Position numbers and translations under genes: made by a program. Of a stretch of DNA of 35,716 nucleotides, positions 13,359-21,755 are shown in pieces (the first letter of the stretch is position 1; every line of letters begins with the position of its first letter). Below the pieces are notes generated by a model that saw nothing but the letters and a program-made list of their open reading frames with translations, did not search any database and was not told where the DNA came from. The stretch is from an uncultured Actinomycetes bacterium (GTDB lineage Bacteria > Actinomycetota > Coriobacteriia > Coriobacteriales > Atopobiaceae), in assembly GCA_900313905.1 (NCBI GenBank), contig OMTG01000103.1, forward strand, positions 1 to 35,716. The letters are read 5' to 3'.

Positions 13359-13952
13359 TCAGTTCGTGGACGAGCGGGTGTCCTTGGGGCTCTCGAAGGT
13401 CTTCTGGTAGACGATGGAGGCCTCGCAGATTGCCCGGACGTAGTCTTCGACGGGCACGGGTCGGCGCACTTCCGAGCAGTAGTGGAAGTACTCGAAGGTC
13501 AGCGTCGTGAAAGCCCAGGCCTCCGTGTCGAGATCCTCCTTCAGCATGCCTGCCTGCGAGAGGATATCGAGGGAATCGGCAACGATCTGGCGCACATGCT
13601 CCTCGACCGTGGCGCCATCCACCTCGAACGTGCGCAACGGTATGAGGCTCTCGGTGGGGGAGGGGCCGGGGAAGTCGGCTGCAGTGCTGGGCTGATGCTG
13701 CGCCAGACACTGGACGGCGCCGATGACCTGGTCGCGGAGGCGGCCAAGCTCGCGCTTCGCGAGAGAGGATGCCACCTCGTATTTGTCATGGTAGTGCCGG
13801 TAGAAGGTGCCCTTGTTCACAAGGGCCTCCTGGCAGATGTCCTGCACCGTGATCTTCTCCAAGGGAAGCTTCCCCAGAAGCGTGATGAGCGCCTGCTCGA
13901 TGGCCTTCCTGGTGCGCAGGACCCGGAGGTCTGTGGAATTTTCTCGATGCAT
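13359..13952 (-). CDS. TetR/AcrR-family regulator (TetR-1)
   Basis: Transcription factor of 197 residues. The N-terminal TetR helix-turn-helix lies at about 34-57 (ITVQDICQEALVNKGTFYRHY), preceded by RTRKAIEQALITLL. The C-terminal ligand/dimer domain is divergent. The ATG has AAAAGGA 5 nt upstream. It is convergent with the desulfurase (27-bp gap) and divergent from the radical SAM gene at 14128; the palindromic sites between them (14008-14038) suggest it represses itself and that enzyme. The ligand is unknown. Confidence 0.88.
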   Translation of the reverse strand: MHRENSTDLRVLRTRKAIEQALITLLGKLPLEKITVQDICQEALVNKGTFYRHYHDKYEVASSLAKRELGRLRDQVIGAVQCLAQHQPSTAADFPGPSPTESLIPLRTFEVDGATVEEHVRQIVADSLDILSQAGMLKEDLDTEAWAFTTLTFEYFHYCSEVRRPVPVEDYVRAICEASIVYQKTFESPKDTRSSTN

Positions 13953-14127: not shown

Positions 14128-15594
14128 ATGCAGAACAAGGTGGTGCACGCCGCAGAGCGCAAGGCGTTCTCGACGGTCATCGACGCGATCATCAAGGCGG
14201 GCTCGGGCGAGGACCGCGAGAAGAACATCCAGCATCTCGTGGACATGGCGACAAAGCTCCTGAAGGATTCGGTGCCGGGTGCTGCCAAGGGCATCCATAC
14301 CGCCCTCTATCCGGGATCGAAGTGGGAGCAGTGGATCTTCCGCGTCATCGACGAGACCGACCCCAACATCCTGAAGACCGCAGTCCTCAACGGCGCCTAT
14401 GAGGCAGCCTTCCGCGGCTACCGCGACACGATCGCGAATGCCGAGAAGCTCCAGTGCAATGTCCCCTGGATCGTGATCTTCGATCCGACCTCTGCCTGCA
14501 ACAAGCACTGCGTCGGCTGCTGGGCGGCAGACTACGAGCGCACCCTCAATCTCTCCTTCGACGAGATGGACCGTCTTGTGACCGAGGCAAAGGCCCTGGG
14601 CACCCATCTCTTCATGCTCACCGGCGGTGAGCCGCTTGTGCGCAAGCGCGATGTCCTGAAGCTTGCGGAGAAGCACAATGACTGCCTCTTCAACATCTTC
14701 ACGAATGCGTCGCTCATCGACCAGCCGTTCTGCGACGAGGTCAAGCGCCTCGGCAACCTGATCTTCTCGGTCTCCCTCGAGGGCACAGAAGAGTCCAATG
14801 ACGGAAGGCGTGGCGAGGGCTCCTATCAGGAGGTCATGCGCGCCTTCGACCTGATGCACAAGAATGGCCTGCTCTATGGAACCTCGACGGCCTATACCCG
14901 CCTCAACACCGAGCTCGTCACCTCGGATGAGTACTTCGATACCATCATAAGCAAGGGCTGCCGCTGGGCCTGGTATTTCCACTACATGCCGGTGGGCGAG
15001 GGTGCCAATGCCGATCTGATGCCGACGATCGAGCAGCGCAAGTACATGATCGACCGCATCCGCACCGTCCGTGGCTATACGGGCGGCAAGCAGATCTTCG
15101 CGATGGACTTCCAGAACGACGGGGAGTATGTGGGAGGCTGCATCGCAGGAGGCCGCATCTTCTGCCATGTGAACGCCCGCGGCGACGTGGAGCCCTGCGT
15201 CTTCATACACTACTCCAATGCGAACATCCGCGACATGAGCTGGCAGGAGTGCCTGCACCAGCCGATCTTCCAGGCCTACCGCGAGAACTACCCGTGGAAC
15301 CAGAACATGCTGCGTCCTTGCCCGATGCTCGAGAACCCCGAGATCCTGCCGCGCATCGTGCACGAGGCGGATGCCAAGTCGACCGAGTATGTCACGCCGG
15401 AGGATGTCGACCATCTCTGCGCACGCACCGCGCCGTATGCAAAGGCGTGGGAGCCGGAAGGCAACCGCATCTGGCTCGAGCAGCATCCGACCGGCAAGAA
15501 GGAATATGGAAACGATGTCTCAGGCAAGAGCCCGAAGGAGCGTGCCGAGCGCATCGAGGCCGACGACAAGCGCCATGAAGCAGTCCTGAGCTAG
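14128..15594 (+). CDS. Radical SAM protein of unassigned function
   Basis: 488-residue enzyme with the radical SAM cluster CxxxCxxC at Cys124, Cys128, Cys131 and TGGEPLV (165-171) for S-adenosylmethionine contacts. Further cysteines occur in GGCIAGGRIFCHVNARGDVEPC and RPCPML, resembling the auxiliary cluster region of SPASM-type enzymes. The N-terminal about 110 residues form a helical extension absent from short radical SAM enzymes. GGGAGAGA lies just before the ATG. It stands alone between a TetR-1 operator and a perfect terminator, so it looks like a ligand-induced single-gene transcript. No peptide substrate gene is adjacent; the reaction cannot be named. Confidence 0.88.
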   Translation: MQNKVVHAAERKAFSTVIDAIIKAGSGEDREKNIQHLVDMATKLLKDSVPGAAKGIHTALYPGSKWEQWIFRVIDETDPNILKTAVLNGAYEAAFRGYRDTIANAEKLQCNVPWIVIFDPTSACNKHCVGCWAADYERTLNLSFDEMDRLVTEAKALGTHLFMLTGGEPLVRKRDVLKLAEKHNDCLFNIFTNASLIDQPFCDEVKRLGNLIFSVSLEGTEESNDGRRGEGSYQEVMRAFDLMHKNGLLYGTSTAYTRLNTELVTSDEYFDTIISKGCRWAWYFHYMPVGEGANADLMPTIEQRKYMIDRIRTVRGYTGGKQIFAMDFQNDGEYVGGCIAGGRIFCHVNARGDVEPCVFIHYSNANIRDMSWQECLHQPIFQAYRENYPWNQNMLRPCPMLENPEILPRIVHEADAKSTEYVTPEDVDHLCARTAPYAKAWEPEGNRIWLEQHPTGKKEYGNDVSGKSPKERAERIEADDKRHEAVLS

Positions 15595-15622
15595 CTTCTG
15601 AACGAGCCCCCTCCTTCCTCAT

Positions 15623-15660
15623 GATGCCCTCCTGGATGCGCTCCAGGAGGGCATCTTTGC
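15623..15660 (+). terminator. Terminator of the radical SAM gene
   Basis: A perfect 14-bp stem (15623-15636 with 15642-15655) with a 5-nt TGCGC loop is followed by TTTGCT. No T-run appears on the minus-strand side, so it mainly serves the plus-strand gene. Confidence 0.85.
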
Positions 15661-15662
15661 TC

Positions 15663-16211
15663 CTATGCCATCTCACGGGCAAGGCGCGTCAGTTCCTGAT
15701 CCATCAGGAAGAGGAGCTCCGGCGTGCTCTCTTTGCGGCCTCCTTCGAGCCATGCAAGAAGGACGCCGGCCAGGGCGCCATACCTGAGGCCCGCTGCGAT
15801 GCGGGGCGGCACGGAGCCGGTGCGCTCTGGCTTGTGCGCCACCAGCCTTGCTGCCTCCAGCATATGGCAGGCGAAGATCATGTCCTCGCGCCCATTCTCG
15901 AGCAGGATCTCGAGCGTCTCGGGATGGGCTGCCCAGTAGGCGAAATAGCGCTCCGCTCTCTTCCGCTCCGGCATGCTGTCTGCTGTCCCGCTGCCCAGAG
16001 CCTCTTTCAGGCCCTCATCGAACTTCCATGCCAGGATGTCTGCCACATCGTCGAAGCTCCGGTAGAAGGTTGTGCGGGCGATCCCCGACTCACGCTGGAG
16101 ATCGCTCACCGATATGTCTGAGAGCGGCTTTTCTGCGAGCAGGCCTCTCAAGGCCTCCTACAGAAGCTCTGCCGAGCGCTGGGCCCGTCTGTTGTCATGT
16201 ACATGGAACAC
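15663..16211 (-). pseudogene. TetR-family regulator interrupted by an in-frame amber codon (TetR-2)
   Basis: A full-length TetR gene reads from a GTG at 16211, with AAGGAGA 6 nt upstream, through 17 codons ending RRAQRSAELL, then a TAG at 16158-16160, then in the same frame EALRGLLAEKPLSDISVSDL and the helix-turn-helix SGIARTTFYRSF. The residues on both sides of the TAG belong to one continuous TetR first helix, so the stop interrupts the coding sequence and is not upstream leader. One transition (CAG to TAG) would explain it. A restart at TTG 16151 would lose half of helix 1 and has a Shine-Dalgarno-like AGGAGG only 2 nt away. It could be a pseudogene, a sequence error or a read-through gene. 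Confidence 0.75.
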
Positions 16212-16715
16212 GGCTGCTCTCCTTCGGACACGCAAAGGCCAGCGTGCAATGCACGTTGTCCGCACAACGATGGAAAGGCAGGCATCTTCGGTGCCTGCCC
16301 TCGGCCAAAGCAGCTTGAGCCTGCCTTGGCCGAGGGCGGCAGATCTCTCTGGCGTCCCAGGAGCAGCAATCATCAGGGGAGCCAGGCAGAGCTCCCAATC
16401 GTCGTTTCCTCCACCTGCCCGAGGCGTGCTCGCAGCAGGGCGTTTTCGCAGGCGGGGACATAGGGCGCTGCCTCCATCTGCCGTGAGGAAGGCAGCGCAA
16501 AGGAGCATGCTGTTCGTGGTCGTGGCGCCATTCCTGCTCCTTGTCCCTTTTATTCCCGCTCCCGGTCGTCTCAATCGCGATCGCAATTTCAGCTTTGCGG
16601 GGCGTGCCTTGCGGTCTCGATGGCGGATGGCTGCAGGGCGCAGACATGGGTAGGTATTGAATGACAGGAATGAAGGCCGGCTGTGGCTGGCCGTGGCTTG
16701 TGAGGAGAACGATCC
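16212..16715. other. 504-bp non-coding stretch rich in inverted repeats
   Basis: No open frame here has recognisable protein features or a good start; the frames that cross it encode low-complexity Arg/Pro/Ser-rich sequence. Several perfect inverted repeats stand out: GGCAGGCA/TGCCTGCC (16277-16284 with 16292-16299), GCCCTCGGCCAA/TTGGCCGAGGGC (16297-16308 with 16326-16337), GCGCTGCC/GGCAGCGC (16465-16472 with 16491-16498), plus the sites at 16243-16269. The first two share 16297-16299 and are mutually exclusive as RNA. It could be a long leader for the downstream hydrolase, a decayed gene or an unannotated RNA. Confidence 0.5.
16243..16269. promoter_or_regulatory. Two overlapping palindromes upstream of TetR-2
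   Basis: CGTGCA-A-TGCACG (16243-16255) and CGTTGT-CCGC-ACAACG (16254-16269) are perfect inverted repeats overlapping by 2 bp. They lie 32-58 bp upstream of the GTG start of the interrupted TetR gene, where a self-binding operator would be expected. Confidence 0.5.
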
Positions 16716-17507
16716 ATGGATCTGCTTGAAGAGTTGAAGGGGCGCCCCAGCGGAGAGCTTCCGCTCGAGCTGGTCGGGGCGCTGGCGAACCCGCATATCA
16801 CGCTCACCGATTTCGCTGCACAGGAGGAGCTCGTGGGTGACCGAGCCCTGCAGGCAGAGGTGGGATACCGCAAGGATGGGGAAGGGGTATGGCAGGTCTC
16901 CTACTGCTGCCCCATGCCCGCTGTCACCCCTGACATGCTCAGATGGTGGTACTGGTGGTATCCGAAGGGCGATGTGCGCTATCAGGCCTGGTATCCCGAG
17001 AGCCATGAGAGCGTCGGGTACCGTGAGAGCGACCGTGACTATTTCGAGCGTGGCGTGCGCCCGAGCTTCCACGACAACGAGCTGCATGTGGTCCATCGCG
17101 TCGGTAAGGACCGGATGCCCTTGGCAGTGAAGTACGTGAAACCGGAGGAGTTCGCATTCGATACGAAGGCGCTCCACAAGGCAGGGGTGCCCATCGCCTT
17201 CTGCGCCAAGATCGGCTCGAACCGGGGCGCCATGCTGCATACGGCAGCGACCCAGCTCTATCTCAAGTCAGATGAAGGTGGCCTGGAGCTTGTGGGCCGC
17301 TACTGGATCGGCCAGCTCCTGCCCTGGAAATGGATGCGGAAGAGGATGACGGGAGAGGAGCTCGCGCACGACGTGTGCGAATATGCCCTCATCGCCTCAC
17401 GCAACCTGGCTGAGCGCCTGCCTGAGCTCTATGCGGCATATGGGCCAGGGGATGAGGCATACCAGGAGGAGGCGCCTGCCTCGGCGAAGCGGAAGAAGAA
17501 GCATTAG
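16716..17507 (+). CDS. DAPG/phloretin hydrolase family protein (PhlG-like)
   Basis: Likely zinc-dependent C-C bond hydrolase acting on acylated phloroglucinol-type phenolics. The 263-residue protein shows the family pattern LRWWYWWYPKGDVRYQAWYP (75-94) followed by His97. His218 and Glu222 (HxxxE) match the C-terminal His/Glu metal pair of PhlG, and Glu144 or Glu145 could be the fourth ligand; the first is His97. No signal peptide. It has a Lys-rich tail (KRKKKH). An AGGAG tract lies about 10 nt before the ATG. It is convergent with TetR-3 (3-bp gap). Substrate is inferred: plant phenolics such as phloretin fit a gut lifestyle. Confidence 0.75.
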   Translation: MDLLEELKGRPSGELPLELVGALANPHITLTDFAAQEELVGDRALQAEVGYRKDGEGVWQVSYCCPMPAVTPDMLRWWYWWYPKGDVRYQAWYPESHESVGYRESDRDYFERGVRPSFHDNELHVVHRVGKDRMPLAVKYVKPEEFAFDTKALHKAGVPIAFCAKIGSNRGAMLHTAATQLYLKSDEGGLELVGRYWIGQLLPWKWMRKRMTGEELAHDVCEYALIASRNLAERLPELYAAYGPGDEAYQEEAPASAKRKKKH

Positions 17508-17510
17508 CGC

Positions 17511-18047
17511 TCAGCGCTCGCTGTCTGGGTTCCAGAGGCTGCTCACGATATCGACCATGTGCTCAGGGGATTCCTGGTAGCCTCTGCGGGCCCAGGCCCA
17601 GATCACGCCGCAGACCCCGCAGCCGATGAAGCATCCCTGATAGTAGCCCTCTGTGCTCGGTCCGCTGGCGAAGGCGCGCTCAAGCGGGCTGATCATGAGG
17701 GAGCGCTCATGGCTCGTGCCAAGCACGATATCGACCGTCTCATGGATCGAGAGATAGAACTCGAAGACGAGCTGCAGGAGCTGGGTGCGCGTGAAATCGC
17801 AGCTCTTGCCCCGCGTGGTGCGGTCCTCTTTCACTTCTTCCAGATAGCGCCCCCACAGGCGCTCGATCTGGTAGGAGAGCAGCTCGTCCTTGCTACTGAA
17901 GTAGCGGAAATAGGTCGTGCGCCCGACATGGGCGCGCTCCACGAGCTCGTTGACCGAGATCTTCTCCACGGGCTTCTCCTGCATGAGGGAGACGAGTGCC
18001 GTCCCCAGGCAGTCCTTCAGGTATTCGGTCGTGACCGCGCGGCGCAT
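17511..18047 (-). CDS. TetR/AcrR-family regulator (TetR-3)
   Basis: 178-residue transcription factor with the TetR helix-turn-helix at about 30-50 (ISVNELVERAHVGRTTYFRYF). The C-terminal domain has the TetR-like WARRGYQESPEHMVDIV ending. The start at 18047 has GGAGG 5 nt upstream; longer in-frame starts would run into the neighbouring promoter. It is divergent from the SDR-cupin gene across a palindrome at 18125-18138 and convergent with the PhlG-like gene, so it probably controls the SDR-cupin gene and itself. Confidence 0.88.
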   Translation of the reverse strand: MRRAVTTEYLKDCLGTALVSLMQEKPVEKISVNELVERAHVGRTTYFRYFSSKDELLSYQIERLWGRYLEEVKEDRTTRGKSCDFTRTQLLQLVFEFYLSIHETVDIVLGTSHERSLMISPLERAFASGPSTEGYYQGCFIGCGVCGVIWAWARRGYQESPEHMVDIVSSLWNPDSER

Positions 18048-18124
18048 GGGCCCTCCTCGCAGAAAGGTATCTCTTCCAGCTTTCGTACCACTTTGCAGTC
18101 TAGCGCTCATCTGCCGATAGCATA

Positions 18125-18138
18125 GGTACAAACGTACC
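18125..18138. promoter_or_regulatory. Palindromic operator between TetR-3 and the SDR-cupin gene
   Basis: GGTAC-AAAC-GTACC is a perfect inverted repeat 22 bp before the SDR start. The half-site CGTACCA recurs as a direct repeat at 18084-18090 and 18133-18139. A possible -35 TTGCAG (18093-18098) and a weak -10 around 18116-18123 place the palindrome at the promoter. Confidence 0.55.
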
Positions 18139-18160
18139 AATATCGGCGACAGGAGGGCAT

Positions 18161-19495
18161 ATGGGCTGCCTGGATGGGAAAGTGGCGGTCGTGACGGGGT
18201 CGGGCCAGGGCGTGGGCCGGGGCATCGCGGAATACTTTGCCGCACAAGGCGCTGAGGTCGTGACGAACAACCGCCATCCGCTCATGCCGGAGGAGCGGCC
18301 AGCCGATGAGCCGGAAGAGGAGTTCGAGCGCTACCGGGCACTGCGGGGCGATGCGGAAGCGACCGCATCTGCCATACGTGCCAGAGGAGGGCAGGCTGTC
18401 GCCTGCTTCGGCGATGTGGCGGATCCGGAGGATGCGAAGCGCCTCGTCGATTGCGCCATCCACGAGTTCGGCCGCATCGATATTCTCGTGAACAATGCAG
18501 CTGGCCTGGGGCAGGGGACGATCGAGGAGACCTGTGAGGAGTCCTGGCAGCGCCAGACACGGGCCAAGCTCGATGGAGCCTTCCATACGATGCACTATGC
18601 GGTGCCCTACATGAAGAAGCAGGGTGGCGGGTGCATCCTCAACTGCTCCTCCAATGCCTGGCTGGGATTCTCTGGCCTCGATGCCTACAGTGCCGCCAAT
18701 GCCGGCGTGGTCGGCCTTACCTGGGCCGCCTCCAAGGAGCTCTTCGAGTACGGGATCAGGGTCAATGCCTACTGCCCCCAGGCGGACTCGCCCGGCCATG
18801 TCCGGGAATTCGGACGGACCGTGAGGCAGCTGGCTCAGGAGACCGGCGAGGCTCCCGATCCCGAGGTGATCGCCCACGCCGAGCGCATGCATGGGACAGC
18901 GTATGATATGGCGCCTTTCCTGGCCTGGCTCGCGACCGATGCGGAAAAAGGGATATCGGGCAGTGTCTTCCAGGTCACGGGTGCTGGCCTCATCGCACGC
19001 TACACGGAGCCGGAGGTCGTGGCGAAGATGGAGAAGGACGAGGGCCCCTGGACGATCGAGGAGCTCGACGACGAGGCGCCTTCCGGCCTCTTCCACGGCT
19101 ACGAGAGCATCGCTTCGGTCGATGACTGGGGAGATCCTGCTGCTGCAGATCCCATCCTGCGCCACGGCATCATCTTCCCGAAGGGGAAGCCCGCCTCAGG
19201 AATCCCCGGCGAGGCCTATCTCAATCTGCTGGTCGGGCCAGACGATCCTTCGGGCTGCGCTCTGGGCACGGTGACCTTCGCTCCCGGCGTGATGAACGAC
19301 TGGCATGAGCATGAGGGGTGGCAGATCCTGGCCTGCCTGGGAGGGCTCGGCGTCTACGAGGACAAGGAAGGCCGGAAGTGCTTCATGCGTCCGGGCGATG
19401 TGGTGAAGGTGCCGCCCCATCTCTCCCATCGCCATGGCGCAGCGCCCGGCCAGAGCTTCAGCCAGCTCGGGCTCGTGCTGCCAGCACAGGACTGA
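18161..19495 (+). CDS. SDR-family oxidoreductase fused to a cupin domain
   Basis: 444-residue cytoplasmic protein. Residues 1 to about 290 are a short-chain dehydrogenase: nucleotide motif TGSGQGVG (12-19), NNAA (111-114), catalytic Ser163 and Tyr176. The usual YxxxK lysine is Asn180 (YSAAN), so the classical proton relay is altered. Residues about 335-444 are a cupin like those of carboxymuconolactone-decarboxylase-type proteins, with metal ligand candidates His382, His384, Gln388 and His423. AGGAGG precedes the ATG. The TetR-3 neighbour and operator imply induction by a small molecule. It may act on a phenolic or cyclic substrate; this is inferred from the cupin and the PhlG-like gene nearby. 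Confidence 0.85.
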   Translation: MGCLDGKVAVVTGSGQGVGRGIAEYFAAQGAEVVTNNRHPLMPEERPADEPEEEFERYRALRGDAEATASAIRARGGQAVACFGDVADPEDAKRLVDCAIHEFGRIDILVNNAAGLGQGTIEETCEESWQRQTRAKLDGAFHTMHYAVPYMKKQGGGCILNCSSNAWLGFSGLDAYSAANAGVVGLTWAASKELFEYGIRVNAYCPQADSPGHVREFGRTVRQLAQETGEAPDPEVIAHAERMHGTAYDMAPFLAWLATDAEKGISGSVFQVTGAGLIARYTEPEVVAKMEKDEGPWTIEELDDEAPSGLFHGYESIASVDDWGDPAAADPILRHGIIFPKGKPASGIPGEAYLNLLVGPDDPSGCALGTVTFAPGVMNDWHEHEGWQILACLGGLGVYEDKEGRKCFMRPGDVVKVPPHLSHRHGAAPGQSFSQLGLVLPAQD

Positions 19496-20575: not shown

Positions 20576-21755
20576 ATGGATACCTACAGCTTCTATGCAC
20601 CGACCCGGGTCCTTTTCGGGGCAGGCCAGCTCCAGAATCTGCACACCCTGCCGATGCCGGGCACGAAGGCGATGATCGTCACCTCGAACGGCAAGTCCAC
20701 GATCGTGAATGGCTCGCTCGATGCAACGGAGAAGGAGCTCGAAGCTGCAGGCTGCAGCCATGCCCTCTTCAACAAGGTCGCTGCCAACCCCCCTCAAGGC
20801 TGTCGTCGAGGAGGGCGCCCAGTTCGCCCGCAGCAATGGCTGCGATTTCGTCGTCGCCCTGGGTGGCGGCTCCGTGATGGATGCAGCCAAGAACATGGCC
20901 ATGCTGGCACCGCAGGCAACCGATGACCTGTGGGACTTCGTCTTCACGGCCCATGGCAAGAAGCAGGTGCCGGAGGCGGCGCCCCTGCCCTGGATCGCCA
21001 TCACCACATCTGCCGGCACGGGCTCCGAGGTCGACTCCGCAGGCGTCATCACGAACCCCGATACGAAGGAGAAGATCGGCGTCGGCGGCTTCCCGGGGAT
21101 GATGGCGACATACGCGATCGTCGACCCTGAGCTCATGCGGACCGTGCCTGCCAAGTACACGGCCTACCAGGGCTTCGATGCGCTCTTCCACAGCCTCGAG
21201 GGCTACATCTCGAAGCGCCACAACCCGATGAGCGACATGGTGCAGCGAGCCGCGATCGAGAACATCGGGAAGTACCTGCCGCGTGCCGTGGCTGATGGCA
21301 ACGATATGGAGGCACGCTCTGCAGTCGCCTTCGCGAACACGATGTCAGGCTACTCGATGGATGTCTCTGCCTGCACCTCCGAGCATTCGATGGAGCACGC
21401 GATGAGCGCCTACCATCCCGCCCTGCCCCATGGTGCTGGCCTCATCATGATCTCCGTCGAGTACTTCAGCTACTGGATCGGCCGCCACGTGTGCGATGAG
21501 CGCTTCATTGATATGGCCCGCTTCCTCGGCAAGGCCGATGCCACGAAGCCTGAGGACTTCATCTCTGCCCTCAAGGATCTCCAGCGTGCCTGCGGCGTCG
21601 ACGACCTGAAGATGTCCGATTACGGCATCCAGAAGGACGAGGCATTGACGCTTGCCAGGAATGCTCGCGAGACCATGGGGATGCTCTTCGCCTGCGATCC
21701 GGCCGACATGCCCGAGGCAGACTGCGCCGGCATCTACGAGCGCGCCTGGAAGTAG
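20576..21755 (+). pseudogene. Iron-containing alcohol dehydrogenase with a frameshift at a C6 tract
   Basis: The first frame (20576 on) encodes the N-terminus MDTYSFYAPTRVLFGAGQL through FNKVAANP. At the C6 run 20788-20793 the rest of the protein continues in the +1 frame from PLKAVVEEGAQFARSNGCDF through GGGSVMDAAK to the stop at 21755. The unshifted frame ends at 20926. Removing one C would restore a protein of about 392 residues, normal for the family. Metal ligands are intact downstream: Asp/His in GFDALFHSLEG and His in EHSMEHAMSAYHPALPHGAG. A good SD (AGGAGAGGA) and a strong terminator suggest a live gene, so a sequencing error, phase variation at the C-run or recent inactivation are all possible. 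It would reduce aldehydes or oxidise alcohols with NAD(P). Confidence 0.85.

Follow-up and report, generated by a model that had tools for sequence, protein, structure and literature searches.

What does an in-frame TAG at codon 18 mean for a gene that otherwise reads as a TetR-family regulator? The interrupted gene lies on contig C45 of a draft genome that totals 2.78 Mb over 181 contigs, and the window is the whole stretch of 35,716 nucleotides analysed here (Table 1). Reading along the minus strand, the GTG and 16 further codons are followed by the TAG, 164 codons and a terminal TAG at 15665–15663. The first-pass annotation had described a GTG with an ideal Shine-Dalgarno sequence, 17 TetR-like codons, an amber codon and the rest of the regulator in the same frame. 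These parts are as described, being borne out by the translation and the duplex energy; the strand was left unstated there. A 360-aa open frame (16158–17240) through the TetR start is in large part antisense to the neighboring PhlG-like gene, and nothing was found in its support.

Table 1. Positions of the interrupted regulator gene, its signals and its neighbors in the window.
Feature	Coordinates	Strand	Basis
TetR-family regulator gene broken at codon 18	15663..16211	-	182 codons + stop; translation, TetR_N match, 85 relatives, AF2 model
GTG start codon	16209..16211	-	homologous to relatives' start; AAGGAG 5' of it, duplex with anti-SD -9.0 kcal/mol, spacing 6
In-frame TAG, codon 18, mid helix 1	16158..16160	-	sequence and model
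TTG, closest possible restart past the TAG (residue 21)	16149..16151	-	ORF list
Weak candidate operator: palindromes CGTTGT-N4-ACAACG and GTGCATTGCAC side by side	16244..16269	.	
PhlG-like gene (DAPG/phloretin hydrolase family), divergent, possible target	16716..17507	+	PF18089, 109.9 bits, cut-off 22.7
Gene for a radical SAM/SPASM protein, convergent to the TetR gene	14128..15594	+	

The protein read through the TAG carries the TetR_N helix-turn-helix, with a borderline score of 21.6 bits alone (cut-off 24) and 24.1 bits with neighboring sequence. Its relatives L110, L109 and L108, with which it aligns end to end, score similarly (24.4, 20.4 and 26.7 bits). The AF2 model, built on an alignment of 50 sequences, displays the all-alpha TetR fold with nine helices at a mean pLDDT of 94. 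Helix 1 spans residues 8–25, and residue 18, the position of the TAG, is located in its middle. The best PDB match in Foldseek is 3o60_A (TM 0.80), while most other TetR chains among the matches listed reach 0.34–0.57. Among the best sequence-profile matches to solved structures are 3kkc, 4mk6 and DhaS (2iu5), and the DhaS-like regulators (TIGR02366) give the best named NCBIfam profile. However, the window protein scores 34.8 bits against the equivalog cut-off of 129, no dihydroxyacetone kinase occurs among the window proteins scanned, and the window gene, unlike the DhaS-like regulators, is broken by a TAG.

In order to see how relatives read the site, we aligned the best 80 of 151 (78 distinct loci) together with 7 others, giving 85 rows, and took as the start of each the start codon closest to the homologous position, so that starts are inferred from codons. 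A start codon is located at the homologous position in 84 of the 85, mostly opening MYHI, and at the TAG column every one of the 85 has an amino acid and no stop. The residues H3, D7, R9 and S13, ahead of the TAG, are strongly conserved among these relatives, and R9 and S13 do not vary across the alignment of 50. The shared start and the absence of a stop at the column indicate that the sequences before and after the TAG form one protein, as the first-pass annotation had held on the basis of family-like sequence on either side. It had also pointed to relatives starting beyond the site as contrary evidence, and with 84 of 85 starting at codon 1 such relatives do not appear. We rejected an upstream leader peptide followed by a separate gene, since relatives are continuous through the site. 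The TAG is thus a nonsense lesion inside the conserved TetR domain.

Of the 85 rows, 43 have Tyr at this position (41 of 83 distinct), with Thr (8), Val (8) and Cys (7) next in frequency, and the 17 closest distinct relatives all have Tyr. Gln occurs once, in L148, encoded by CAG. The proposal that a C-to-T change in a CAG codon created the stop is therefore disfavored as far as the alignment can tell.

We refer to these relatives as the MYHI-start TetR subfamily (L116, L117, L121, L122 and L123–L200). They are 24–42 percent identical to the window gene and share with it the position of the start and a frequent divergent neighbor, whereas the stop is found in the window gene only. Most are from Firmicutes, and others are from Coriobacteriales, Bacteroidales, Chloroflexi and further groups. 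In L123–L200 the N-terminal start MYHI..D.R...SAELIY is strongly conserved, and in some of these loci the divergent gene encodes an HXXEE membrane protein or a PhlG-family hydrolase. Searched at E 1e-20 against 396 genomes of the class, a profile made from five sequences found matches in 5, among them the genome studied here. Among 140 genomes of the family we found no near copy, the best match showing 45 percent identity, and searches of two congeners returned distant TetR matches only. A near copy was also not found in the collections genome_contigs, viral_contigs and plasmids (the last with window 15600–17600), which may omit near records.

Apart from the TAG, the gene shows little sign of decay. 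We observed no second lesion, although a single substitution would turn 45 of the other 181 codons into a stop. Of 21 highly conserved columns, the window protein deviates at 4, a number reached or exceeded by 13 of 79 distinct full-length relatives; two duplicate rows, rows shorter than 170 aa and L120 were taken out for this count, and L132, L158 and L168 stop early, at 133–151 aa. The rest of the protein is conserved about as in relatives and no second lesion is present, which fits either a young lesion or an error. Both the fresh pseudogene and the sequence error of the first-pass annotation consequently stay in play, while its third reading, a read-through switch, finds no support.

We consider it probable that a local TetR regulator, perhaps that of the divergent PhlG-like gene, is present here as a null allele of recent origin. 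The locus would formerly have encoded a TetR regulator, and a recent nonsense mutation would have struck codon 18. Translation would end after 17 residues, ahead of the helix-turn-helix, leaving no DNA-binding regulator. As sequenced, the gene would thus yield no full-length TetR protein and appears to be a broken member of the family, with no sign of suppression. This reading takes the TAG base as presumably real and the loss of regulator function as its likely consequence. Gene decay does occur in this genome, as seen from a second PhlG-family gene, which is a decayed fragment at C124:421-876 (G000; L094, L106) with one in-frame TAG, and of which we saw no intact full-length frame.

The main rival to the null allele is a base-call or assembly error, the true gene being intact; we regard this as a real, if rather unlikely, possibility. 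The draft state of the assembly, an otherwise intact TetR gene, and the single substitution that turns Tyr, the most frequent residue of the column, into TAG all speak for it. So does a C6-run frameshift in an iron-containing alcohol dehydrogenase gene 4.6 kb away, from which the assembly may be imperfect. On the other hand, the lesion is a substitution and not a homopolymer indel. Meanwhile, when about 447 kb of the genome was scanned for stops flanked on either side by coding-like sequence, 17 came up (9 TAG, 5 TAA and 3 TGA), 12 of which have a start codon within the next three codons. At four of the other five (window 19493 was left out), no Pfam match over the cut-off crosses the stop, while at L205 two weak matches below the cut-off do (E 0.014 and 0.038). 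The scan discriminates modestly and is unable to flag the TetR site itself, where only 17 coding codons precede the stop. In-frame stops were also absent from 75 ABC_tran, 23 mostly short PF00890 and 20 TetR_N matches. Stop-making errors therefore look rare in this assembly.

Restart of translation behind the stop is improbable. A strong Shine-Dalgarno sequence, TAGGAGG (-9.5 kcal/mol), overlaps the TAG, the TTG follows 6 nt past it, and ribosomes that terminate are able to re-initiate nearby, so that a working, shortened regulator might begin at TTG 16151 or later. However, the Shine-Dalgarno sequence is merely 1–2 nt from the TTG, and the product would lack residues 1–20, which form most of helix 1 and include the invariant R9 and S13, in an N-terminus that 84 of 85 relatives keep. 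We find it very hard to credit a variant of this scheme, in which the protein made by restart at TAGGAGG, devoid of most of helix 1, could still dimerize without binding DNA and act as a self-limiting form of the regulator.

Read-through of the UAG, regulated or constitutive, as a switch at the protein level is highly unlikely: the frame past the TAG is open and conserved, and a suppressor could exist outside the 46 Rfam tRNA matches, which lack Ile-GAT and Ala-TGC, but no CUA anticodon is among these 46, release factor RF1 is present, no match to PylRS (TIGR02367) was found in the genome, TAG is a common terminator, and none of the 85 relatives has a stop at this column. Anticodons were assigned by ARAGORN for 45 of these tRNAs, and one tRNA cut by a contig end was read by eye as Pro GGG; the model RF00005 may miss unusual tRNAs. 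The 135 long ORFs of the 447 kb sample end in TGA (61), TAG (51) and TAA (23). None of the marks of UAG recoding or pyrrolysine use, namely a UAG tRNA, PylRS and UAG in other conserved genes, was observed, apart from the one in-frame TAG of the decayed PhlG fragment. On these same grounds we reject a change of the genetic code, and the check for amber suppression or a reassigned tRNA called for at the outset returned nothing within this incomplete tRNA list. We saw no sign that the code is read in an unusual way here.

With the null allele as the most likely reading, we turn to what the regulator might have controlled. It probably bound the intergenic region, controlling itself and perhaps the divergent PhlG-like gene. 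A divergent neighbor is present in 56 of the 82 relative rows with an upstream neighbor, where the gap is 183 bp or less in 49 of 56. In the window the gap is 504 bp. Among the 55 divergent neighbors within 450 bp, 43 were scanned, duplicates and eight others being left out, together with those of the window gene and of L069 and L108, the last two added for their likeness. Nine of the 43 are HXXEE proteins and three are PF18089 members (L133, L167 and L183), to which the scan adds those of the window gene, L069 and L108; L069 and L133 score slightly below the Pfam cut-off. The neighbors of L175, L143 and L146, taken from an assignment by the longest ORF that errs in some cases (at least in L121 and L122), are 45–47 percent like that of L069, without a Pfam match. 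The relatives of the same order, L116 and L117, are divergent to HXXEE genes, and the congener G001 carries a PhlG-like gene of 59 percent identity, while the 12 kb examined there contain no such TetR gene.

The divergent window gene, a predicted hydrolase, passes the Pfam cut-off of the family of phloretin hydrolase Phy and DAPG hydrolase PhlG (PF18089), whereas it scores 47.7 bits against the PhlG equivalog cut-off of 600. A phloretin hydrolase is described in PMC8398226, and in titles and the openings of abstracts we found nothing on this TetR locus. Based on this Pfam match and on the PhlG-family neighbors of a few relatives, control of the hydrolase by the TetR protein is a fair guess, no more. 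The wide gap, the commoner HXXEE neighbors and the TetR-free locus of G001 keep the target uncertain. The regulator was presumably a repressor rather than an activator, with the PhlG-like gene as its presumed target; in that case the hydrolase would now be expressed without ligand control.

The candidate operator adds little: when the window is taken as 274 blocks of 130 bp, 94 of them contain inverted repeats of like size, so the pair is not significant alone. We rejected an operator shared across the subfamily, because the upstream repeats do not match those seen in the 19 relatives examined, and such repeats are frequent across the window. The palindromes CGTTTCGAAACG and TAGTTTCGAAACTA, found 5' of the TetR genes in L117 and L126, are related to each other and may be operators belonging to a single branch of the subfamily.

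We also notice several features of the surrounding region. Two more TetR genes are located on the minus strand at 13359–13952 and 17511–18245, so that 5 kb hold three such genes; for the second, the start given in the ORF list precedes the TetR_N match by 84 residues and has probably been set too far upstream. The iron-containing alcohol dehydrogenase gene (20576–21755, plus strand) is split by a 1-nt frameshift at the C6 run 20788–20793, and in its downstream ORF the Pfam match begins only after profile position 61. In G001 (L107), the PhlG-like gene adjoins orthologues of window 23.9–27.9 kb, and the segment 17507–23883, which holds TetR, SDR and alcohol dehydrogenase genes, is absent between them, which suggests an insertion or a loss.

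Null mutations of TetR repressors, for example those of efflux pumps, can release a neighboring gene. The window locus resembles these cases in bearing a nonsense lesion in a local regulator, and differs from them in that the presumed target is a PhlG-like hydrolase and that the case is known from sequence alone. The lesion is a common kind of event, and in annotation the TetR gene should be labelled a pseudogene, neither a read-through gene nor a short-form gene. If the base is real, the locus represents a naturally occurring null allele next to a PhlG/phloretin-hydrolase-like gene in an apparent Coriobacteriales bacterium, and in strains of this kind the hydrolase could be expressed with no inducer present.
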